Origin: an uncultured bacterium
GTDB taxonomy: Bacteria; Desulfobacterota; GWC2-55-46
Length of the DNA stretch: 64,000 nt
Direction: 5' to 3'
Assembly (NCBI GenBank): GCA_905339405.1
Contig: CAJPGC010000014.1
Coordinates: 62,001-126,000, forward strand
Made by a program: the position numbers and the translations under genes. Under the pieces are notes generated by a model, which was given only the letters and a program-made list of their open reading frames with translations, did no database searches and had not been told where the DNA came from. Below are positions 30,991 to 46,939 of this stretch, one piece after another; positions within the stretch are counted from its first letter, which is position 1, and each line of letters opens with the position of its first letter.

Positions 30991-30991
<1 letters not shown>

Positions 30992-31953
30992 CAGTTAAGC
31001 CTCAGGTTGTTAAGGTATCCTTTTACGAGCCTCTCCTGGTCAGCGGGCGAGAGCTCCTTTTTCAATATGTCTTCCGCAAGCTGGACAGCGAGCCTGGCGG
31101 CTTCTTCCCTTATCTCTATCCTGGCCTTCTTTATCTCCTGCTCCGCGGCAAGCTTCGCCTGCGCCTTCAGGGCCTCCGCAGACTTCGCGGCCTCGGCGAT
31201 TACGCGGGCCTTTTCGGCTTCGCCCTCGAGCTTCAATTCGTTGTGTATCTCGGAGACCTTGCTGTCCAGGAGCGAGAGCTTCGCCCTGTACTCTGCGGCG
31301 TTCCTGTCGGCGGCGTCCTTGGCCTTCTGAGCCTCTTCAATGGCGTTCTGGATGTCCGAGCCGCGTTTTTTAAGGAGGCCGCTTATCGCCTTCGTCCAAA
31401 CGAGGTAGACGCCGATGGCGAGGATTACGAAGTTTATTATCTTCCAGGTCATGCCGGAATCGCCGTGTCCGCCCTCAGAGGAGGCGAAAGCGAGCGAGGG
31501 CGCGAGGAGGCCCATTATAAGGAAGCCTACGACGTTCCTCTCGAGCACCTTGCCTGCTATGTCCTTTGCAAGGGTCCTGGCTTCGGTTCCGAGACCGGAC
31601 AGAGCGCTCTTCTTGCTCGCCTCGATTTCGTGCCTTATTATGGTAAGTTCCTTATTTGCCTCGGTGCGCGCGGCTTCCAGGGTGGCCTTTTCCTTCTCTA
31701 TGCCTTCCTGTCTTATTCTGGCGCGCTCTTCGTTGCCCTTGACGGCCGCTTCCTTGAGCTTTTTCTCGTAGGCGGCTATGCCTTCGGAAATTTCCTTGTC
31801 AGTCTGGGCGGCCTTCTTGATGGAGCCCTCAATTTTTTCTTCCCTTTCCTTGAGGATGCGCTGGACCGGCTTGTAAAGGAACTGGTTTAAGACCAGAAGG
31901 AGGAAGAAAAAACCGATTATCTGGATGAGAAGTGTATAGTCGATAGATATCAT
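30991..31953 (-). CDS. atpF: Fused ATP synthase b'/b subunits (two AtpF-like modules in one ORF)
   Basis: 320 aa: module 1 MISIDYTLLIQIIGFFFLLLVLNQFLYKPVQRIL..., then GFLIMGLLAPSLAFASSEG (signal-like) and module 2 MTWKIINFVILAIGVYLVW... Confidence 0.85.
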
Positions 31954-32258: not shown

Positions 32259-32990
32259 TCAAGGCACGACAGTGTCGTTCGTCACGGAGTCCCGGTCGTC
32301 GTCGAATATGCCGTTGTCGAGCGAGGAAGGGGTCTCAGGCCCGATGGCGAACTCGTCTTCGCCGTTCAGTATTGACGGGGTCTCCCCGAGGATGCTGCCG
32401 CGGTCGTCGATGAATATGCTGTCCCTATTGCCCGTAAGCGTGTTGTCGCGCGTATCGAAGGCGCTGCCCTGGTCAAGGCCGGTGGTGCCGTCGAACCGGC
32501 CGGTGATGTTCGTGTTGTCCTGGCGGAAATCCGGCACGCTGCCTGCCGGGGGCATCTGAGTCGTCGACGGAAACTGCGTGCTTGGTGGAAACTGCGTGCT
32601 TGGCGGAAACTGCGTGCTTGGCGGAAACTGCGTGACCGGAGGCAGCGGCTGCGTCGGCTGCAGGGGCGGTTGCGTGGACTGTAAGGGCGGTTGAGTAGAC
32701 TGCAAAGGCGGCTGTGTCGATTGCAACGGCGGTTGCGTAGTCGGAGAAGGAAGCTGCGTCGTGCCAGGGATGTTAGGCGTGGTGCCAGGGATATTCGGGG
32801 TTGTGCCGGGTATGTTAGGTGTGGTGCCAGGTATTGTCCCTGTCGTGCCGGGGATGTTTTGTGTTGTGCCGGGTGTCGTACCGGCAGTGCCCGGGGTCGT
32901 CCCGGCAGTCGGGCCTCCCGTGACCTGGGCAAAGCCGTTCACGGAAAGGGCAAAGATGAAAAAAAAGGTGAAGAGCGCCTGTATGATCAT
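32259..32990 (-). CDS. Secreted Pro/Thr-rich tandem-repeat protein
   Basis: Signal peptide then [NIPGTTP]n, [LQSTQPP]n, [QFPPST]n and Asp-rich C-terminus. Confidence 0.65.
   Translation of the reverse strand: MIIQALFTFFFIFALSVNGFAQVTGGPTAGTTPGTAGTTPGTTQNIPGTTGTIPGTTPNIPGTTPNIPGTTPNIPGTTQLPSPTTQPPLQSTQPPLQSTQPPLQSTQPPLQPTQPLPPVTQFPPSTQFPPSTQFPPSTQFPSTTQMPPAGSVPDFRQDNTNITGRFDGTTGLDQGSAFDTRDNTLTGNRDSIFIDDRGSILGETPSILNGEDEFAIGPETPSSLDNGIFDDDRDSVTNDTVVP
32570..32890. repeat. Three consecutive in-frame tandem repeat arrays (about 18, 21 and 21 bp units)
   Basis: AACTGCGTGCTTGGCGGA-type, GGTTGCGTGGACTGTAAGGGC-type, and GTGCCAGGGATGTTAGGCGTG-type units. Confidence 0.75.
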
Positions 32991-33429: not shown

Positions 33430-36400
33430 TCAGTCCTTGAGCTCCCTTCCTTTCCATATGGCGTAGACGGCCGGCAGCACGAGGAGCTCGAGGAGCCCGG
33501 AGGTGAACATGCCTCCGACCATCGGCGCGGCAATCTTTTTCATCACGTCCGCCCCCGTGCCCATGCTCCACATTATCGGCAGCAGGCCGAAGATTATCGC
33601 CGTGACGGTCATGACCTTCGGCCGCACCCTGAGGACCGTTCCTTCCATTATCGCCTCGTTGAGGTCGGCTTTCGTGTTGAGTCTGCCCTCGGCTTTGCGC
33701 TTGGCCCAGGCCTGGTCCAGGTATATGAGCATCACTATGCCCATCTCGGCATCGAGCCCGGCTAGGGCGATGAACCCGACGGCCACTCCTATTGAAAGGT
33801 TGTAGCCGAGGATGTACAGGAGCCACGCCGCGCCAATCAAAGAGAACGGAATGGCGAGCAGGATTATGAGGCATTCCGTTATCGACTTGAAGTTGAGGTA
33901 AAGGAGTAGGAATATTATGGCGAGCGTCAGGGGCACGATGACCTTGAGCCTGGCGTAGGCCCTCTCCATGTACTCGTACTGGCCGCTCCACGAGGCGTAG
34001 TAGCCGGGCGGGAACTTCACGTCCTTTTCCACGGCCGCCTTTGCCTCGGCCACGTATCCGCCTATGTCAGTGTCCCTCACGTCGATGAAAATCCACGTGG
34101 TGAGGAGGGCGTTTTCAGTGCGCACCGCTGGAGGGCCCATCTTTACCTGTATGTCGGCGACCTGCGAAAGAGGGATATTGACGCCGCTCATGGCAGGCAC
34201 GAGCACGCGCTTGAGCTTGTCTATGTCGTCACGGAGCTCCCTCTGGTAGCGGACGTTCACCGGGTAGCGCTCGAGCCCCTCGACGGTCGTGGTGACGTTC
34301 TCGCCGCCTATGGCGGTCATGACTACCGACTGCACCTCCTCTACCTTGAGGCCGAACCTTGCTGCCTCCTCGCGCTTTATGCTTATGTCGAGGTAGTAGC
34401 CGCCGCCAATCCTTTCCGCGTAGGCGCTCGCTGTCCCCGGCACTTTCTTGACCGCCGTCTCGACTTCAAGGGCTACCTTCTCGAGCTCTTCGAGGTCCTT
34501 GCCGAATACCTTTATCCCAACCGGCGTCCTTATGCCGGTGGAGAGCATGTCGGTCCTGGCCTTGATTGGCATTGTCCACGCGCCCGTTACGCCCGGCATC
34601 GAGAGGGCTTCGTCCATCTCTTTCACGAGAGCTTCCATCGTCATGCCAGGACGCCACTGCTCTTTTGGCTTAAGGTTGATGACCGTTTCGAACATCTCAA
34701 AGGGGGCCGGGTCTGTGGCCGTGAGGGCCCTTCCGGCCTTGCCGAAGACGCTTTCGACCTCGGGGAAGCCCTTGATTATCCTGTCCTGCGTCTGCAGGAG
34801 CTCAGCCGTTTTCGTGACAGATATGCCCGGGAGCGTCACCGGCATGTAAAGGAGAGTCCCTTCGTTGAGGGCGGGCATGAACTCGCTGCCGAGCCTCGTG
34901 ACCGGGTATATCGTGACGGCGAGGGCCGCAAGCGCGATGAGTATCGTCGCTTTCCTGTGCCTCAAGACCTTCTCTATGGCGGGCCTGTAAAGCCAGACCA
35001 GAGTCCTTGTTATCGGGTTTTTCTCCTCGGGCTGGATTTTCCCCTTGATGAAAAAGCCCATGAGGACAGGCACGAGGGTGATTGAAAGGAGGGCGGCGGC
35101 CGCCATCGCGAAGGTCTTGGTGTAGGCGAGCGGCTTGAAGAGCCTTCCTTCCTGCGCTTCTAGCGTGAATATCGGCATGAAAGATACGGTAATGATGAGG
35201 AGGGAGAAGAAAAGCGGGGGGCCCACTTCCTTGGCGGCCCTGCCGATGACCTCCCAGCGGTCTGTTTCGCCACCAGACCTCTCGAGGTGCTTGTGGCCGT
35301 TCTCGACCATGATTATCGCGCCGTCTATCATCGCGCCTATCGCGATGGCAATGCCGCCGAGGCTCATGATATTGGCATTTATGCCCATCATGTACATGAC
35401 TATGAATGATACGAGTATGCCGACGGGCAGCATTATTATGGCAACGAGCGACGACCTGAAGTGAAGGAGGAAGATGACGCAGACGATCGATACGAGGATG
35501 GACTCTTCGACGAGCTTCGTCTTTAGAGTATCTATGGCGTCGTATATGAGGCCGCTCCTGTCGTAGACGGCACGTATTTTGACGCCGGGCGGCAGGCCCG
35601 CTTCTATCTCTGAAAGCTTCGCCTTGACGCCGTTTATGACCTCGAGCGCGTTCTCCCCGAAGCGCATGACGACGATGCCGCCGACGGCCTCGCCCTCTCC
35701 GTTGAGCTCGGCTATGCCCCTTCTTTCGTCGGGGCCTACTTCGACCCTCGCCACGTCCCTTATCCTCACGGGCGTGCCCGTGCGGTCGGCCTTCAACACG
35801 ATGTTCTCGATGTCAGGGACGCTCTTTATGTAACCGAGCCCCCGCACCATGTACTCGCGCTCGGCCATCTCCACGACCCGCCCGCCTACGTCCGTGTTGC
35901 TCATCTGCAGGGATTTTACGACCTCGCCGATCGACACTCCGTGGGTGACGAGCCTGTTCGGGTCGATGTTAACCTGGTACTGCTTCACGAACCCGCCGAC
36001 CGAGGCGACCTCCGACACTCCAGGCACTGACGTGAGCTGGTAGCGGATGAACCAGTCCTGTATTGAGCGGAGCTCGGCGAGGCTCATGTTCGCGCCCTCT
36101 ACGACGTACTCGTAGACCCAGCCGACGCCTGTGGCGTCGGGGCCGAGAGTGGGGGAAACTCCCTGTGGGAGCTTGCCGGAGGCGAAGTTCAGGTACTCCA
36201 ACACCCTCGAGCGGGCCCAGTAGATGTCGGTCCCGTCCTCGAAGATGACGTACACGAAAGATACGCCGAAAAAGGAGTAGCCCCTCACGACCTTTGCCTT
36301 TGGGACCGAGAGCATGGCGGTCGTCAGTGGGTATGTCACCTGGTCTTCTACAACCTGCGGGGCCTGTCCGGGGTATTCGGTGAAGATTATGACCTGCGCG

Positions 36401-36531
36401 TCAGACAGGTCGGGAATGGCGTCAATCGAGGTGTTGTAGACGGCCCATACGCCCCAGCCGGTTATGAAGAGGGCCGCGAGGATTACGGCGAAGCGGTTCT
36501 TTATGGAAAGCTCTATTATCTTCCTGAGCAT
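33430..36531 (-). CDS. cusA: Heavy-metal efflux RND transporter, CusA-like
   Basis: 1033 aa; GGIAIAIGAMIDGAIIMVENGHKHLE and VGFIALAGLDAEMGIVMLIYLDQAW resemble CusA (Cu/Ag, HME4) rather than CzcA. Confidence 0.88.
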   Translation of the reverse strand: MLRKIIELSIKNRFAVILAALFITGWGVWAVYNTSIDAIPDLSDAQVIIFTEYPGQAPQVVEDQVTYPLTTAMLSVPKAKVVRGYSFFGVSFVYVIFEDGTDIYWARSRVLEYLNFASGKLPQGVSPTLGPDATGVGWVYEYVVEGANMSLAELRSIQDWFIRYQLTSVPGVSEVASVGGFVKQYQVNIDPNRLVTHGVSIGEVVKSLQMSNTDVGGRVVEMAEREYMVRGLGYIKSVPDIENIVLKADRTGTPVRIRDVARVEVGPDERRGIAELNGEGEAVGGIVVMRFGENALEVINGVKAKLSEIEAGLPPGVKIRAVYDRSGLIYDAIDTLKTKLVEESILVSIVCVIFLLHFRSSLVAIIMLPVGILVSFIVMYMMGINANIMSLGGIAIAIGAMIDGAIIMVENGHKHLERSGGETDRWEVIGRAAKEVGPPLFFSLLIITVSFMPIFTLEAQEGRLFKPLAYTKTFAMAAAALLSITLVPVLMGFFIKGKIQPEEKNPITRTLVWLYRPAIEKVLRHRKATILIALAALAVTIYPVTRLGSEFMPALNEGTLLYMPVTLPGISVTKTAELLQTQDRIIKGFPEVESVFGKAGRALTATDPAPFEMFETVINLKPKEQWRPGMTMEALVKEMDEALSMPGVTGAWTMPIKARTDMLSTGIRTPVGIKVFGKDLEELEKVALEVETAVKKVPGTASAYAERIGGGYYLDISIKREEAARFGLKVEEVQSVVMTAIGGENVTTTVEGLERYPVNVRYQRELRDDIDKLKRVLVPAMSGVNIPLSQVADIQVKMGPPAVRTENALLTTWIFIDVRDTDIGGYVAEAKAAVEKDVKFPPGYYASWSGQYEYMERAYARLKVIVPLTLAIIFLLLYLNFKSITECLIILLAIPFSLIGAAWLLYILGYNLSIGVAVGFIALAGLDAEMGIVMLIYLDQAWAKRKAEGRLNTKADLNEAIMEGTVLRVRPKVMTVTAIIFGLLPIMWSMGTGADVMKKIAAPMVGGMFTSGLLELLVLPAVYAIWKGRELKD

Positions 36532-37868
36532 CAGTGCCTGTGCTCCGTTGCAGGAGCCTCCTGAGGCTTGCCCTCTTCTTCAGAACGGGGGCTGCCCATC
36601 GAGCTTACTGCCGCCTTGAGGTTGCTTTCGGAGTCGACGAGGAAGTTCGCCGAGGTCACTACCCAGTCCCCTTCGGCAAGCCCATCGAGGACTTCCCACG
36701 CTTCGGCCCCCTTTGCCCCAGCTCTTATCTCCCTGGGCTCGAACGTGCCGTCGCGCCTGTCCACTATGACCAGCCTTCTTGTGCCAGTGTCTATGACGGC
36801 CGAATCAGGGACGATGAGCGCGCCTTTGGCAACAGGAGCCTCAAGCTCGACGTTGAGGTACATGCCTAATTTGAGCCTGTGGCCGCTGTTGTCAAGGGAG
36901 AACCTGACCTTGGCGGTCCTCGATTCCGCTGTGGCCTCTTCCGGGGCGTACCTTATGGAGCCCAGGTGGGTGTATATGTGCTCTATCGTGCCGATGTGCC
37001 TGTCAGACGGTGAGTACGACGGCGTCAACACTGCCTTCTGCCCTTTTTTTATGTACGGCATCTCGTATTCGTAGACTTCCCCGTAGACCCAGACGCGGGA
37101 GTGGTCGATTATCTTGAAGAGCTCTTCTCCCGCTTCTATCTTCTGCCCTTCGACGACCTTCTTTTCAGTCACAGAGCCAGCAACAGGCGAGCGTATAGCG
37201 AGAGTCCTTGAGGGCGTTTCTCGTTTCTTCAGTTTTTCTATCTGGTCGTCCGAGATGTCCCAGTACTTGAGCCTCTGGCGGGCGGCATCGACGAGGGCCT
37301 TCGCGCCGCTCCCGGCCTCAGCGTACGGGCTGTCTTTCACCTTTTCGTAGCTTTCAAGCGCCAGCAGATACTCCTGCTGGGCGGAGATGAGCTCCGGGCT
37401 GTACAGCTCAAGGAGCTTCTCCCCGTTGGAGACCATCTCGTCGGTCCTGTTGACGTAAAGTTTTTCTATCCAGCCGGGGACCTTCGCGGTAATGACGTGC
37501 ACGCGGTCTTCGACCGGCTCGACCCTGCCGACGGTCCTTATTGTGCGCTTGAGGTCGCCTCTTGTGACCTGGGCCGACTTCACCCCGATTTTCTGTATCC
37601 TCTCCGGGGTGATCCTCACCGTGCCTTGAGGCGTGCCGGGGGCCGCCGCCTCGTCTTCGTAGACTGGCACGTAGTCCATGCCCATCTGGTCTTTCATCGG
37701 CACCGGGGAGGTCACTTGCGGGTCCATGGGGTTCCTGTAGAAAAGGACCTTGCGCTCAGCCTCGGCTGCGGGCTTCGGGGCCGGGCTTTCCATGCCTGCA
37801 TACCAGACGATTACCCCTCCGGCCAGAAGGCCTATCAACATCATTAAAACGCCCGTCATTTTTTTCAT
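36531..37868 (-). CDS. cusB: Efflux RND periplasmic adaptor, CusB-like, with N-terminal heavy-metal-binding domain
   Basis: YRNPMDPQVTSPVPMKDQMGMDYVPVY followed by membrane-fusion protein domains. Confidence 0.9.
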   Translation of the reverse strand: MKKMTGVLMMLIGLLAGGVIVWYAGMESPAPKPAAEAERKVLFYRNPMDPQVTSPVPMKDQMGMDYVPVYEDEAAAPGTPQGTVRITPERIQKIGVKSAQVTRGDLKRTIRTVGRVEPVEDRVHVITAKVPGWIEKLYVNRTDEMVSNGEKLLELYSPELISAQQEYLLALESYEKVKDSPYAEAGSGAKALVDAARQRLKYWDISDDQIEKLKKRETPSRTLAIRSPVAGSVTEKKVVEGQKIEAGEELFKIIDHSRVWVYGEVYEYEMPYIKKGQKAVLTPSYSPSDRHIGTIEHIYTHLGSIRYAPEEATAESRTAKVRFSLDNSGHRLKLGMYLNVELEAPVAKGALIVPDSAVIDTGTRRLVIVDRRDGTFEPREIRAGAKGAEAWEVLDGLAEGDWVVTSANFLVDSESNLKAAVSSMGSPRSEEEGKPQEAPATEHRH

Positions 37869-37889: not shown

Positions 37890-39164
37890 TTATTCCTTTT
37901 GTGCCGTTGAAAGCTCGACGCCGGAGGCGCGCTCCAAATTGGCGAGCCTCCTGTTGTATTCGAAGAGGGCTTTCAAATAGTCGGTGCGTGTCTTCCTGAG
38001 GTCGCGTTCGGTCTCGAGCAGCATGAGAAGGTCTATGCGCCCCGTCCTGTAGTTCCGGAGGGCCGACTCGTAAGACAGCTCGGCCTGCGGCACCAGCGAC
38101 GTCTCGAAGAGCTCCATCTGCCTCAAGGAGGCCTCTACCTCTATGGACGCGCTTTTGACTTCCAGGGCCTTCCTGTTCTTTCCGGCCTTGAGGCGCGCGT
38201 GCGCTTGTCTGGCCTTTGCTTTCGCGCCCTCAGAGAGGCTTTCGTACTTCCCCCGCCATATCGGTATGTTGACCTGGAACATCAAATCGTAACTGTCGAA
38301 ACTGCCGTCGCGCTGTATCGGCGCGACGCCGACCATGAAGTCAGGGTAGTAGTTTTTGTCCGCAAGCCTGGCCCCGAGCTCGCTGCCCTCCGTGTCCGCT
38401 TTCAGCATGGCTATATCCGGCGTCGATTCGACCGCGCCTTTCATGAGCTCTTCAGCGTCGAACGAGACCCGCCCCTTAGGCAGTTCGGCATTGCCGCCAA
38501 GCTCCTCGGACTGGTCCATGTTGACGAGAGACTTTATCCCGGCTGCGGCCGCTTCCCTTCTGGCTTCGAGCATTATGAGCTCGTCGGTGAGCATCGCCTG
38601 TTCGACGTTGAGCTTTATGACGTCCTGCTGCGTCACCTGGCCCGTCGAGTACATCGTACCCGCTATGTCGGCGGCAGTTGAAAGGAGGTCTTTTATATCC
38701 TTCGTTATGCGTATCGATTCGTCTATGAAGGCGTACTCGAAGTACGCCTCCTTTACCATCGCCGTCAGTTCGAGCTCGGCCGAGCTTATGGCAGCCCTCG
38801 CGCCAGCGGCTTCCTTGTTGGCCATCTGTTCTTTGAGCGAGCGCTTTCCGGGGAACGGGAACATCTGGCTGAGCGTGTACCTCGTCATCATCGCGTTGCC
38901 AGGGCCGGCCTCGAGCGGGCGTTTCGTCGAGAGGTCTTCGAGCTCGATTTTCAAGGTGGGGTCGTCGAGGCTGCCTTCGGCCCTGGCAATGGCCTCGGCT
39001 GAAAAAGCTTCCTCGCGCAGTGCCGCGAGCTCGGGGTTGGTCTTCCTCGCCCGTTCGAGGAGCTCTTCCAGGACGAGCCTGTCCGCCGAAAGGGATAGGG
39101 CAGGGCTGGAAAATGCAGTTATCAGAGCTGCCGCGGCGGCCGCAAGTGCGATTCTACCCCGCAT
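37890..39164 (-). CDS. cusC: TolC-family outer membrane efflux protein, CusC-like
   Basis: Signal peptide, LEELLERARKTNPELAALREEAFSAEA, paired coiled-coil OEP repeats. Confidence 0.85.
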   Translation of the reverse strand: MRGRIALAAAAAALITAFSSPALSLSADRLVLEELLERARKTNPELAALREEAFSAEAIARAEGSLDDPTLKIELEDLSTKRPLEAGPGNAMMTRYTLSQMFPFPGKRSLKEQMANKEAAGARAAISSAELELTAMVKEAYFEYAFIDESIRITKDIKDLLSTAADIAGTMYSTGQVTQQDVIKLNVEQAMLTDELIMLEARREAAAAGIKSLVNMDQSEELGGNAELPKGRVSFDAEELMKGAVESTPDIAMLKADTEGSELGARLADKNYYPDFMVGVAPIQRDGSFDSYDLMFQVNIPIWRGKYESLSEGAKAKARQAHARLKAGKNRKALEVKSASIEVEASLRQMELFETSLVPQAELSYESALRNYRTGRIDLLMLLETERDLRKTRTDYLKALFEYNRRLANLERASGVELSTAQKE

Positions 39165-39174
39165 TGGTCTCTCC

Positions 39175-39552
39175 TCAAGGTATGTTATGGGTGAACTCGA
39201 GCCTTATTGACCTGCCGGAAGATTCTATCGATATGTCGAAACTATATCTGCCCGGTCTGGACATGTCCAGCGAGTTCATGAACGAATACGCCTCTCCCAT
39301 CTTCATCCCGAGGAGGTCTTTTTCCACCTTCCTTCCGTCCGGGAAAGTGACGCTCGCCCGGACCTTCGCGTCGGTTATCTCTTTTCCGCTGGGGAGCTCG
39401 CTGAGAAAGAGGTCGACCATTTTTTTGGCCGGGTCGGTCTTGAGGACCCCTTTGACTCCGCCGGATGATTTTACCGAGGTCTCGGCTGAGACGATCGACG
39501 CGTAGAACCCAAGCGTGAAGACTATCAGAAAGAGAACCGTTACTTTTTTCAT
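39175..39552 (-). CDS. Small periplasmic protein, possibly FixH/YtkA-like fold
   Basis: MKKVTVLFLIVFTLGFYASIVSAETSV signal peptide; start at ATG 39552 after AAGGAGGGAC; supplied ORF start 39699 is over-extended into the M56 gene. Confidence 0.65.
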   Translation of the reverse strand: MKKVTVLFLIVFTLGFYASIVSAETSVKSSGGVKGVLKTDPAKKMVDLFLSELPSGKEITDAKVRASVTFPDGRKVEKDLLGMKMGEAYSFMNSLDMSRPGRYSFDISIESSGRSIRLEFTHNIP

Positions 39553-39561
39553 TGTCCCTCC

Positions 39562-39578
39562 TTCTACATACTGTAGAA
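39562..39578. promoter_or_regulatory. Perfect inverted repeat, putative BlaI/CopY-family operator
   Basis: TTCTACA-TAC-TGTAGAA immediately 5' of the cusCBA transcription unit. Confidence 0.7.
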
Positions 39579-39595
39579 AAGTTTGGCAAAAAAAA

Positions 39596-40483
39596 TCAAT
39601 GCTTGTGGCTGTGTTTTGCCGAGCAGTGTTCCCTGCACCCCTCGACCATGTCAGCGTGCGTCTCGCATTTGTCCAGCGTGCACTCGTGCGCCTTTGCACC
39701 GGCGTAGAAAGGCATTGAAAGAGAGAGCAAAATGGCCGCGAAAATGGCCGCGCTTATGACCGCCGCCCTTGCCGGGACCCTGAAGGAGGCCTGCTTTCCT
39801 TCGAGCAGCCTCCTTACCCTGCCTGTGACCTGTTCCGTGTTGTCGGCCAGCGCCGCGTGGAGAGCCCCATTCCTTGCGACCTTTATCATCGCAGAAGCGA
39901 GGCTTATTGGCCCGCCCGGTGCGTCTGCTGCCTTGTCGTCTGCTTCATGCTCTTTTTTGAGGCGCGCGAAAAAGGCCAGGTGACTTACAGCGGGCAGATA
40001 GAAAAAGACGTCCTTCGCGAAGCCGATGAGGAGGAACCTCAACGGGTCAAAGCCCTTCTTGTGCTTCAGTTCATGGAGGAAGACCGCCCGGAGTTCGTCC
40101 TTTTCAAGGCCGTTGAGGAGCCCGGTGGAGATGTATATACGGGGGCGCAGCAAGCCGCAGGTAAAAGCAGTCTTGACCCTGTCGTCTTTTATAAGGGCTA
40201 TCTCTCCCCTCATTTTCACGGGCAGAGAGGAGACGGCCTTTCTGGCCTTGACGATGTTGCTTGCGGCCCTGAAAGGGGCGTAGATGAGCCCGGAGGCCAC
40301 GAGGAGTGCCCCAGACCATATGAAAAAGAGTTTGGCGAGGGAAGCCAGCTCGACGCAGCGCACGAGAAGAGACTGGCAGGCTTCAAGAGCGCCGGATGTA
40401 AGTGACAAAACGCCGGGGAAGGCGAAGGCAGCCCAGGCTGCCGAGATGACGATGAAAGAGAGAAGGAGGGCGCTTAGAGTCAT
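39596..40483 (-). CDS. M56 (BlaR1-like) membrane metallopeptidase with Cys/His-rich C-terminal tail
   Basis: AVFLHELKHKKGFDPLR zinc-protease motif; several TMs; tail HECTLDKCETHADMVEGCREHCSAKHSHKH; start at ATG 40483, 4-bp overlap with the blaI-like gene. Confidence 0.85.
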   Translation of the reverse strand: MTLSALLLSFIVISAAWAAFAFPGVLSLTSGALEACQSLLVRCVELASLAKLFFIWSGALLVASGLIYAPFRAASNIVKARKAVSSLPVKMRGEIALIKDDRVKTAFTCGLLRPRIYISTGLLNGLEKDELRAVFLHELKHKKGFDPLRFLLIGFAKDVFFYLPAVSHLAFFARLKKEHEADDKAADAPGGPISLASAMIKVARNGALHAALADNTEQVTGRVRRLLEGKQASFRVPARAAVISAAIFAAILLSLSMPFYAGAKAHECTLDKCETHADMVEGCREHCSAKHSHKH

Positions 40484-40920
40484 TTTTTGCCCTCCGTTGA
40501 GCCGCCAAGCTCCTTTTTCTTGCTCTCGATGAGCTCCGAGAGCCGTTCCAGCTCGCCGGGGTCTGTGTCGGCGAGAGCGTCCACCAGAGAAGCGCAAAGC
40601 CCGCTGGCCGAGATGCCGAGTATGCCCTTGAAGACGTCCTCGGAGATTGTCCTGGCGAACTCTTCCCTTGAGAAGGCGGGGGAAAAGGCGATGAGCCCGG
40701 CCCCTTTTTGCTTTGCGACCAGCCCCTTTTTGGCGAGCCTTTCCAGAACGGTGAGGACGGTCGTGAGCGCTATCTCCCTGCCTGATTTGATGCCGGAGAA
40801 GACGTCCCTTCCGGATGAGGCGCCCGAAGCCCAGAGGAACTCCATTACATCCTGCTCGAGCGGGCCCAGGGGGCTGCCGTATGTCTCAATCCTTGATTTT
40901 CTCGCCATAGGCCTCTTCAA
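40480..40920 (-). CDS. BlaI/MecI/CopY-family transcriptional repressor
   Basis: SPLGPLEQDVMEFLWASGASSGRDVF...IALTTVLTVLERLAKKGLVAKQ winged helix; ATG at 40920 or 40908. Confidence 0.9.
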   Translation of the reverse strand: MKRPMARKSRIETYGSPLGPLEQDVMEFLWASGASSGRDVFSGIKSGREIALTTVLTVLERLAKKGLVAKQKGAGLIAFSPAFSREEFARTISEDVFKGILGISASGLCASLVDALADTDPGELERLSELIESKKKELGGSTEGKK

Positions 40921-40932
40921 AAGTACAAACCC

Positions 40933-40961
40933 ATATTATTCGACATTATGTAGAAAGTCAA
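40933..40961 (-). promoter_or_regulatory. Promoter with embedded operator for blaI-M56
   Basis: Minus strand TTGACT-[TTCTACATAATGTCGAA]-TAATAT; the 17-bp spacer is the operator. Confidence 0.75.
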
Positions 40962-41035: not shown

Positions 41036-41668
41036 TTGGGTTTCTTTATAACTTTCGAAGGGATAGAGGGGTGCGGCAAGTCGACCCAGCTTGGGCTCCT
41101 TAAAGCCCACCTTGAAAAAAAGGGCAGGCCGGTCTTGAGCGTTCGGGAGCCGGGCGGCACGCTTCTCGGGGAAGCCGTGAGGTCGGTCCTCCTGAGCGGT
41201 ACCGAAGAAGGGGTCGACCCCTGGGCCGAGCTTTTTTTATATGAGGCCTGCCGGGCGCAGCTCGTCTCGAAGGTCATAAGGCCGGCCCTTGCCGCCGGGA
41301 AGGTCGTCGTCTCCGACAGGTTCTACGATTCGACTCTAGCCTACCAGGGTTTCGGCAGGGGGCTGGACGCTTCCAAAATCGAAAGCCTCAACGAGCTCGC
41401 AACCGGAGGCCTTGTCCCCGACGTGACGATACTTGTCGACTGCCCCGAAGAGGTCGGGCTTCACCGTGCCTGGTCGCGGATAAACGCCTCGGCTGGCGCG
41501 AGGGAAGACCGTTTCGAGAAAGAGGCCCTCGATTTTCACAGGCGCGTGCGCCAGGGTTTTCTGGAGATAGCGAAGACTTCCGCGAGGGTCAAAGTGGTCG
41601 ACGGCTCCCGTGAAATCTCTACGGTTCACAGGGAGATATGTGATATTATTGAGGGAGTGGCGGGTTAG
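41036..41668 (+). CDS. tmk: Thymidylate kinase
   Basis: FITFEGIEGCGKSTQLGLLKAHL; VSDRFYDSTLAYQGFGRG; TTG start. Confidence 0.96.
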   Translation: MGFFITFEGIEGCGKSTQLGLLKAHLEKKGRPVLSVREPGGTLLGEAVRSVLLSGTEEGVDPWAELFLYEACRAQLVSKVIRPALAAGKVVVSDRFYDSTLAYQGFGRGLDASKIESLNELATGGLVPDVTILVDCPEEVGLHRAWSRINASAGAREDRFEKEALDFHRRVRQGFLEIAKTSARVKVVDGSREISTVHREICDIIEGVAG

Positions 41669-42734: not shown

Positions 42735-43922
42735 ATGGTACGGGTTGTAGGTGTAAGGTTCAAGAAGGCTTGCAAGGTATACGACTTTGAGGCCGAAGCC
42801 CTGGAGCTTAATCCGGGGGATACCGTGATAGTCGAGGTCGAAAGGGGGCTCGGGCTGGGCACCGTCGTGTACACGCCCAGGGAAGTGGACCCGGAAACCC
42901 TTACGAGGCCTTTGAAGAAGATAGTTCGCAAGGCCGACCCGGTCGACGTCGAGCGCCAGGGCTTCAACACTGAGCGCGAGATCGAGGCCTTCAGGATATG
43001 CAGGGAGAGGATAACGAAGTACAACCTCCCGATGAAGCTCATAAGGGTAGAGTACCTGTTCGACTCCAGCAAGGCCATCTTCTACTTTACTTCTGATACG
43101 AGGGTCGACTTCAGGGAGCTCGTAAAGGACCTGGCCGCGACGTTCCACACAAGGATAGAGATGCGGCAAATTGGCGTAAGGGACGAGGCGAAGATGATAG
43201 GCGGCCTCGGCCCCTGCGGAAGGGAGCTTTGCTGCTCGGGTTTTCTCGCGGACTTCGAGCCCGTGACCATAAAGATGGCGAAAGAGCAGAACCTCGCCTT
43301 GAACCCCGTTAAGATATCCGGCATCTGCGGCCGCCTCATGTGCTGTCTTTCCTATGAGCACGACTTCTACCAGAACGAGCGCAGGAAAGACAGGGAGCGG
43401 GAGAAGGAGCAGGCCGCCAGGGGAGAGACCCCCGAGGGGCAGCAGCCCGAGAAGAAGGAGGAGAGGGGCGGCAGGGAGCAAAGAGGCGGCAGAGGCGGAC
43501 GGGACAGAGGCAGGCCAGGACAGCCCCAGAAGGAGCATGGCTGCGGCGGATGCGGCAAGCATGGGGAGCACGGCGCCCATGGCCACGGCGGCCCTCAAAC
43601 CAGCGGCGGCGGCCGTCCCGAGAGGCAGCCCGAAAAACAGGGCGATAGGCCTGCGCGCCCCGAAAGACAGGGCAGGGACAGGCAGGGAAGGCCCGAGAGG
43701 CAAGGCAGACCCGACAGGCAGGACAGGAAAGACAGAGGCCCGAGACAGGACAGGGGCCCGAGGCAGGGAAGGCCCGAGCAGTCAAAGGGCGGAAAACCCG
43801 AGCAGGCCGCGAACGGGCCCGGGCAGGCCGCAAAGCCCGAGCAGCAGGCCAACAGTGAGCAGCCTGCCGTCAAGCCTGAACAGGCAGGCAATACACCTGA
43901 AGAGACGAGGCAAGGGGAATAA
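42735..43922 (+). CDS. ricT: PSP1/RicT-like protein with long disordered Arg/Gly/Gln-rich C-terminal tail
   Basis: PSP1 core with GGLGPCGRELCCSGFLADFEPVTIKMAKEQNLALNPVKISGICGRLMCCLSYE; tail of RPERQG-like units. Confidence 0.88.
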   Translation: MVRVVGVRFKKACKVYDFEAEALELNPGDTVIVEVERGLGLGTVVYTPREVDPETLTRPLKKIVRKADPVDVERQGFNTEREIEAFRICRERITKYNLPMKLIRVEYLFDSSKAIFYFTSDTRVDFRELVKDLAATFHTRIEMRQIGVRDEAKMIGGLGPCGRELCCSGFLADFEPVTIKMAKEQNLALNPVKISGICGRLMCCLSYEHDFYQNERRKDREREKEQAARGETPEGQQPEKKEERGGREQRGGRGGRDRGRPGQPQKEHGCGGCGKHGEHGAHGHGGPQTSGGGRPERQPEKQGDRPARPERQGRDRQGRPERQGRPDRQDRKDRGPRQDRGPRQGRPEQSKGGKPEQAANGPGQAAKPEQQANSEQPAVKPEQAGNTPEETRQGE

Positions 43923-45523: not shown

Positions 45524-46939
45524 ATGGAAAAAGTCTTGTTCATGGACACCCACGCCCACCTTGACGACAAGAGGTTCTCAGGGGACCTCGACGAGGTCGT
45601 TGGCAGGGCGAAAGAGGCCGGCCTCAAATCGATAATAACCGTCGGCTGCTGGAAAAAAGAAGGCGGCTTCGCCCCGGTGCTCGACGTCGTTAAAAAATAC
45701 AGCTCCCTATGGCTCGCTTTGGGCGTCCACCCCCATGAGGCTAAAGACGCCGTCGAAGAGGGCCCCTGGGACGATATAAGAAAGATAGCCAATGAGAAAG
45801 GGGCCGACGGGAAAGCAAGGCTCGTCGCCATCGGCGAGACCGGCCTCGACTACCATTACGACCATTCGCCCCGGGAGGCGCAAAAGAAGGTCTTCGCCCG
45901 CCAGATAGCGCTGGCAAGGGAGCTGAACCTGCCGGTCATCGTCCATTCGAGGGAAGCCGACAACGACACCATGGAGATATTGAAGGCCGAGGGCGCTTCC
46001 GACATTGGCGGCGTATTTCATTGTTTTTCGGGCACGAAGGAGACGGCGAAAGAGGCGCTCGACCTGGGCTTCTATCTCTCCTTCACCGGGGTCGTGACCT
46101 TCCCGAAGGCCGAGGCCTTGCGCGAAGTGGTAAAGGCCGTGCCCATCGAGAAGATGCTCATCGAGACCGACTGCCCGTACCTCGCGCCCGCTTCGCGGAG
46201 GGGCCAGAGGAACGAGCCTTCGTTCGTCGTGGAGACAGCCGCCGAGATAGCGAAGATAAAGGGTCTCACACTGGAGGACGTTGGCCGCATCACGACCCTC
46301 AACGCAGAGGAGCTCTTTGGATTAAGGAATTCAGAGGACAAGGCCCAGATAGCCTATCCGATAAGGAAGTCTCTTTATCTCAACATAACCAACAGGTGCT
46401 CGAACCATTGCTCTTTTTGCGCCAAGTTCCAGTCCTATACCGTGAAGGGCCATTACCTGAGGCTCCGCCAGGAGCCGACGTTCGCCGAGGTGATAGCTGC
46501 GGTGGGCCCTGACCCGGAGGAGAAGTACGACGAGATTGTCTTTTGCGGATTCGGCGAGCCCCTCATAAGGCTCGACGTCGTAAAGCAGGTAGGCATGCAC
46601 CTCAAAAGAAGGGGCTGCAAGATAAGGATAGACACCGACGGGCTCGCCAACCTCGTCCACGGCAGGAACGTCCTCCCCGAGCTGATGTTCGTGGATACGA
46701 TCTCCGTGAGCCTGAACGCGCCTGATTCGGCCACCTACCAGAAGCTCATAAAGACCCCGTTCGGGGACGACGCGTACCCCGCGATACTTTATTTTCTAAG
46801 GCAGGCGAAGAAGTTCATCCCGAAGGTCATAGCCTCTGCGGTAGCGGTGCCGGGGCTCGACGTCGAGGCGACGAGGAAGGTCGCCGAGGACGAGCTCGGG
46901 GTAAAGTTCAGGGTAAGGGAATACAACACGGTCGGTTAG
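45524..46939 (+). CDS. TatD-family hydrolase fused to a radical SAM domain
   Basis: N-term MDTHAHLDDKRF...GETGLDYHYD...ETDCPYLAP (TatD); C-term LYLNITNRCSNHCSFCAKF (CX3CX2C) and FCGFGEPLIRLD. Confidence 0.88.
   Translation: MEKVLFMDTHAHLDDKRFSGDLDEVVGRAKEAGLKSIITVGCWKKEGGFAPVLDVVKKYSSLWLALGVHPHEAKDAVEEGPWDDIRKIANEKGADGKARLVAIGETGLDYHYDHSPREAQKKVFARQIALARELNLPVIVHSREADNDTMEILKAEGASDIGGVFHCFSGTKETAKEALDLGFYLSFTGVVTFPKAEALREVVKAVPIEKMLIETDCPYLAPASRRGQRNEPSFVVETAAEIAKIKGLTLEDVGRITTLNAEELFGLRNSEDKAQIAYPIRKSLYLNITNRCSNHCSFCAKFQSYTVKGHYLRLRQEPTFAEVIAAVGPDPEEKYDEIVFCGFGEPLIRLDVVKQVGMHLKRRGCKIRIDTDGLANLVHGRNVLPELMFVDTISVSLNAPDSATYQKLIKTPFGDDAYPAILYFLRQAKKFIPKVIASAVAVPGLDVEATRKVAEDELGVKFRVREYNTVG

Follow-up and report, generated by a model that had tools for sequence, protein, structure and literature searches.

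We analyzed a stretch of 64,000 nucleotides (here, the window) from the 2.65-Mb genome (95% complete) of an uncultured bacterium. The locus under study consists of six genes, all on the minus strand, encoding a BlaI-like repressor, an M56 membrane metalloprotease, a secreted protein of 125 aa, and TolC-like, CusB-like, and CusA-like proteins (Table 1). A preliminary description of the same DNA had reported an ATGA overlap between blaI and the M56 gene, which the coordinates bear out. It had also placed the cus genes directly after the M56 gene on the same strand; the strand is correct, but the gene for the 125-aa protein lies in between. That gene and both operator palindromes had been missed. 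The genome encodes no PF03965 protein other than this repressor, and the profile match spans its whole winged-helix and dimerization region. In the opposite direction, a gene that we take, from its own sequence, to encode thymidylate kinase starts at 41036.

Table 1. Genes and sequence features of the blaI-M56-cus locus (window coordinates)
Feature	Position	Strand	Evidence
BlaI-like repressor (142 aa)	40480..40908	-	PF03965, 75.1 bits (cutoff, 22.6); homologous to MecI/BlaI structures
M56 membrane metalloprotease (295 aa), proposed sensor/transducer	39596..40483	-	PF05569, 50.1 bits (cutoff, 31)
Cys/His tail of M56 (residues 266-295), proposed periplasmic Cu/Ag site	39599..39688	-	
Codons for M56 Cys36 and Cys43	40355..40378	-	Orthologue alignment, hydropathy
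Small secreted protein (125 aa), CrdA/DUF4426/P19-like fold	39175..39552	-	AF2 and Foldseek
TolC/CusC-like outer-membrane channel	37890..39164	-	PF02321
CusB-like periplasmic adaptor	36531..37868	-	PF16576, 1.4e-65; PRK09783 CusB, 1.2e-50
CusA-like RND pump (CusA/CzcA family)	33430..36531	-	TIGR00914, 1257.9 bits (cutoff, 701)
Operator 1: TTCTACATAATGTCGAA	40939..40955	-	At most 1 mismatch at same place in 42/45 loci
Promoter TTGACT-(operator 1 as 17-bp spacer)-TAATAT	40933..40961	-	TTGACW flush in 41/41 loci
Operator 2: TTCTACAGTATGTAGAA	39562..39578	-	Perfect dyad; kept in 43/47 loci
T8 tract upstream of operator 2, fixed distance	39588..39595	-	Nearly all of 43 loci

The protease, the only M56 protein in the genome above the Pfam cutoff, carries its HELKH motif at residues 137 to 141. 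It qualifies as a peptidase M56 (PF05569) by both its profile match and the HExxH...E zinc site; the BlaR1/MecR1 receptor model NF000326 was not met (31.5 versus 400 bits). The preliminary description was right that a penicillin-binding sensor domain is lacking (the PF05569 match covers residues 52 to 208 only, with no further domain) and that the protein ends, ca. 35 residues past its last helix, in a tail with four Cys and six His. The closest solved relative is BlaR1, with an alignment that reaches BlaR1 residue 326 and so stops short of the sensor domain; Foldseek agreed with this relationship, but TM-scores were low. In BlaR1, zinc is bound by His201, His205, and Glu242, supported by Asp210, Asp246, and Arg294, and BlaI is cut by the enzyme itself, between Asn101 and Phe102 (PMC9834060). 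Residues H137, E138, H141, D146, E178, and D182 of the M56 protein align with BlaR1 H201, E202, H205, D210, E242, and D246, and in our reading of the alignment R222 is probably the counterpart of Arg294. Together with R222, these residues were observed to be invariant among 39 orthologues (32 to 78% identity to the window protein). On the repressor side, alignment with BlaI structures showed Phe at P1' in nearly all BlaIs, but the presumed P1' residue of the window BlaI is Leu, which counts against the cleavage model. Cleavage of BlaI by M56 remains an inference, with only the conservation of catalytic and P1' residues behind it.

Hydropathy placed helices of the M56 protein near residues 3 to 21, 49 to 67, and 241 to 259, and positive clusters were located at residues 72 to 95 (after helix 2) and 225 to 242 (before the last helix). 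From these patterns, the protease domain is predicted to be cytoplasmic, and the tail and the residues C36 and C43, which sit between the first two predicted helices, to be extracytoplasmic. A tail facing the cytoplasm would have refuted the preliminary description; the prediction is periplasmic, given the positive-inside pattern and the position of the tail after a segment homologous to the pre-sensor part of BlaR1. Model confidence for the tail was low (pLDDT of ca. 50 to 55), so that no metal geometry could be predicted.

The AF2 model of the 125-aa protein is an all-beta fold (pLDDT of 87), with the copper-binding FetP/FtrA/P19, DUF4426, and Helicobacter pylori CrdA (9ll2/9ll4), including its silver complex, as best Foldseek matches. 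The match to CrdA 9ll2 (E value, 8.4e-5; TM-scores, 0.59/0.67) was good enough to assign a CrdA fold, but the scores of DUF4426 and P19 folds were similar, so that CrdA is not distinguished from these by fold. An M83-x-M85 motif is invariant in the alignment of this protein, and copper binding is inferred from this conservation alone, with no binding data. The pump belongs to the CusA/CzcA subfamily (TIGR00914) and, aligned to Escherichia coli CusA, shows the Met triad of the Cu/Ag branch (M563, M613, and M662; presumably M573, M623, and M672 in E. coli numbering). By a strict pattern, this triad was present in 23 of 30 pumps, including that of the window.

Some other proteins of the window are also worth recording. 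Near the copper operon, a protein encoded at 42735-43922 (plus strand), presumably a PSP1/RicT relative, has a Cys/His-rich stretch, EHGCGGCGKHGEHGAHGHGG. An ATP synthase b-type subunit (30991-31953, minus strand) has the look of a fusion in which a single frame encodes two b subunits, an apparent fusion of TatD nuclease and radical SAM domains is found at 45524-46939 (plus strand), and a secreted protein with short Pro/Thr-rich repeats (PGTTPNI and TQPPLQS) is encoded at 32259-32990 (minus strand).

Recurrence of the gene pair and of the Cys/His tail

Using a profile built from four M56 relatives, we found M56 in 48 of the 63 genomes (mostly of uncultured bacteria) in the class to which the window belongs. 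Neighbors were counted by hand in 51 unique loci of the class. The gene immediately 5' of M56 is blaI in 48 of them; one of the remaining three is at a contig end, and the other two have blaI elsewhere in the genome. Downstream, cus genes were observed in 43 of the 46 loci having enough sequence, and the co-occurrence that the preliminary description proposed as a check is in this way met. The locus is not a chance assembly, since gene order and tail recur across the whole class. Second blaI-cus operons without an adjoining M56 (L155 and L162) and an unlinked M56 gene (L089) were also found; a function of M56 in trans has to be assumed in these cases. In searches of the phylum outside the class, M56 relatives matched only much more weakly, and those that were read lacked this tail, locus L050 being exceptional in that its M56 relative has another Cys motif. 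A plasmid search gave only distant M56 matches, and an Rfam search gave no match.

Four spaced Cys were observed in the tails of 49 of 51 distinct M56 proteins of the class, and the motif C-x4/5-C-x2-H...C-x2-H-C was observed in 41, with variation of the tail sequence in some branches. Within the 39-sequence alignment, C268 and C287 of the tail are as invariant (39/39) as the HExxH catalytic site, as are C36 and C43 (39/39), while C273, H276, C283, and H286 are conserved in at least 90% of the orthologues. The metal-switch proposal of the preliminary description, which an unconserved tail would have overturned, was refuted by none of the sequence-level tests and is supported with the corrections given here, although metal binding, protease activation, BlaI cleavage, and induction are inference.

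Operator sites and the genes that they adjoin

A 17-bp dyad, TTCTAC-N5-GTAGAA, was observed near blaI and again just after M56, in both places allowing no more than one mismatch (counts in Table 1), while background windows typically had five mismatches to it. At blaI, the dyad is the exact 17-bp spacer of a sigma-70 promoter, with TTGACW flush on one side and then TANNNT; the window copy of this promoter-operator was called independently by a promoter scan. Bound BlaI would exclude RNA polymerase there, since the dyad fills the whole -35/-10 spacer. The efflux-side operator is directly 5' of the Shine-Dalgarno sequence of the CrdA-like gene and has no clear flush promoter hexamers. A T6-8 tract precedes it at a fixed distance in nearly all loci (L004-L112), and no terminator was called at the tract after M56 in a scan of the window. 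Its role is unresolved: it may act in the mRNA, or as bent DNA, or there may be a second promoter whose -10 is TAGAAN.

Where M56 is present, there are about two exact operator sites per genome. At least one exact site was found in 44 of 48 genomes with M56 and in 3 of 15 without it (Fisher P = 2.5e-7, uncorrected for phylogeny). Of 41 exact sites outside the core loci, 36 adjoin copper or metal gene families or blaI, namely, secreted TRASH-like proteins (11), small YHS proteins (7), blaI copies (6), CrdA-like proteins (4), copper ATPases (4), and His-rich membrane proteins (4). Several of the reference proteins were drawn from the same loci, and this count hence measures recurrence across genomes rather than independent prediction. 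Additional ATPases are one gene further from distal sites (L163, L170, and L187). The operator-linked P-type ATPases carry CPC motifs, and the three that were tested were all above the TIGR01511 copper cutoff. In the genome of the window, the only perfect site beyond the core locus precedes a secreted TRASH-like gene, in the arrangement TTGACT-operator-TATCAT (G000:C4:31925-31941). One-mismatch sites of this genome, that of blaI excepted, were taken as chance occurrences, as they fall within long open reading frames that have no member of a copper family nearby.

Judged from the families adjoining them, the operator sites define a copper regulon, and comparative evidence gives good support to the control of a Cu/Ag gene set by this BlaI. 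The Met triad of CusA, the CrdA-like fold, and the copper ATPases sharing the operator together point to Cu/Ag as the metal. Two protein types recur in these surroundings. One is the secreted TRASH/YHS-like protein of 142 aa whose gene follows the composite promoter-operator of the window genome (L154, 2993-3442), recurrent in the class and without an NCBIfam name, and the other is a His/Met-rich membrane protein of ca. 200 aa under the TTCTAC-N5-GTAGAA operator (L168, L169, L172, and L182), for which the two representatives tested had no Pfam or NCBIfam match.

Three genomes contain a second blaI-M56 pair (L048, L049, and L113), with the tail C-x4-C-x6-C-x6-C-x3-C and a 16-bp operator, TTCTAC-N4-GTAGAA; the 17-bp dyad is absent from the blaI and M56 positions of these loci. 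This suggests, by inference from the sites, that the 17-bp and 16-bp systems may be insulated circuits. The -10 hexamer of the paralogous blaI-M56 loci, TAGAAT, appears to overlap the 16-bp operator.

A proposed copper relay and its alternatives

We propose a copper- and silver-responsive protease relay of the BlaR1 type with a periplasmic Cu/Ag sensor, to which we give a probability of ca. 0.72 and which starts from observed gene order, tail conservation, operator, regulon membership, and conserved catalytic residues. As long as metal is not in excess, BlaI would sit on its TTCTAC-N5-GTAGAA sites, namely, those at the blaI promoter, 5' of the efflux genes, and next to copper genes far from the locus. 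When periplasmic Cu(I) or Ag(I) rises, it would be bound by the tail, probably together with Cys36 and Cys43 of the first extracytoplasmic segment; the metal-bound tail would activate the cytoplasmic M56 protease, and BlaI would be cleaved near the position used by BlaR1. Derepression of blaI-M56, crdA-like-tolC-cusB-cusA, and the Cu-ATPase and TRASH/YHS genes would follow. The identity of the metal at the tail, protease activation, BlaI cleavage, and induction are inferred steps, and no experiment shows binding or cleavage. Also weighing against the relay are the low model confidence for the tail, its variation in some branches, the loci in which blaI and M56 are not linked, and the lack of a clear flush promoter at the efflux-side operator. 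The M56 tail as metal sensor, with proteolysis as its mode of action, is still untested, but it accounts best for the data.

The tail could instead serve only as a metal buffer or for delivery to the pump, with the CrdA-like or TRASH protein as the sensor acting on M56. Secreted proteins of both types are in the regulon and could contact M56, but tail and protease form one polypeptide, in which the tail takes the place of the sensor domain of BlaR1, and the tail is kept even in loci without a CrdA-like gene (e.g., L005 and L040), so that we consider this unlikely. Slightly less likely still, the tail would bind no metal and would sense redox or envelope stress through disulfides, with copper acting indirectly by oxidizing it. 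Periplasmic Cys pairs can form disulfides, and two pairs in the tail plus one nearer the N terminus (C36 and C43) are conserved; however, the conserved His residues and the richness of the end in His are more in keeping with metal ligands, and every identifiable regulon member handles copper or another metal.

It is also improbable that BlaI is itself the copper sensor, with M56 employed elsewhere, e.g., in removing membrane proteins that are misfolded or mismetallated. CopY, a relative of BlaI, does sense copper directly, and its equivalog model TIGR02698 was the best NCBIfam match of the window BlaI, but at 44.1 bits, far from the 121.95 demanded. The repressor lacks the C-terminal CxC motifs of CopY, and 28 BlaI orthologues have no conserved Cys, which makes direct sensing as in CopY unlikely. 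Such a reading would also account neither for the linkage of blaI to M56 nor for the invariance of the M56 tail. Finally, a relay that responds to a different metal, soft or divalent (Zn, Cd, Co, or Hg), has very little in its favor: the copper annotation is by homology only, the CusA/CzcA family annotation is broad, and Cys/His sites bind Zn and Cd too, but the Met triad of the pumps, the operator shared with copper-type ATPases, and the resemblance of the small secreted protein to Ag-bound CrdA all speak against it.

Returning to the protease relay, the uncultured bacteria of this class appear to detect copper (or silver) on the far side of the inner membrane with a protease that has a Cys/His tail, and to switch on a whole set of copper-defense genes in this way. 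BlaR1 and MecR1 are beta-lactam sensors, and, to our knowledge, the signal of many M56-BlaI pairs without a penicillin-binding domain is largely open. For such a pair, the system described here supplies a regulon with its defined operator, makes the class of signal clear, and has a sensor so small that each of its residues can be mutated in turn. Copper is known to be sensed by two-component systems and cytoplasmic sensors, to which the relay would add a periplasmic mechanism, and it would offer a minimal model for activation of an M56 protease by extracytoplasmic binding. We consider it somewhat better than an even guess that M56 proteins are a modular receptor family with an exchangeable sensor, in which periplasmic Cu(I)/Ag(I) is received directly by the tail of ca. 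30 residues plus Cys36/Cys43, with proteolysis of the repressor as the outcome, and the paralogues are separate insulated circuits. No description of an M56-BlaI metal switch was found in the literature searched, which is weak evidence, as most subscription papers were outside its coverage.

Comparison with known systems

Among the systems compared, BlaR1-BlaI and MecR1-MecI of Staphylococcus and Bacillus licheniformis share an autoregulated BlaI-family repressor beside an M56 membrane protease, the HExxH, E, D, and R catalytic residues, Phe at P1' of the repressor, and an extracytoplasmic C terminus. In contrast, the locus described here has a Cys/His tail of ca. 30 residues in place of the penicillin-binding sensor domain, copper genes as targets, fewer N-terminal helices, and a dyad center of 3 bp, not 2. 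CopY/CopR of Gram-positive bacteria are likewise BlaI-family repressors of copper-export genes, with a related operator (consensus RNYKACANNTGTMRNY, 2-bp center; PMC7253601), but CopY itself binds Cu/Zn via CxC, while the repressor studied here lacks CxC and is paired with a protease.

With CusCFBA/CusRS of E. coli, the locus has in common the CusA, CusB, and CusC homologues and the Met triad of CusA; it differs in having a CrdA-like protein instead of a CusF-type gene and BlaI-M56 control instead of a histidine kinase pair (kinases were outside the search). CrdAB-CzcBA of H. pylori also combines a small secreted protein of the CrdA fold with a TolC-like channel, an adaptor, and an RND pump, but under a different regulator, and the relationship to CrdA is by fold only, with no sequence test.
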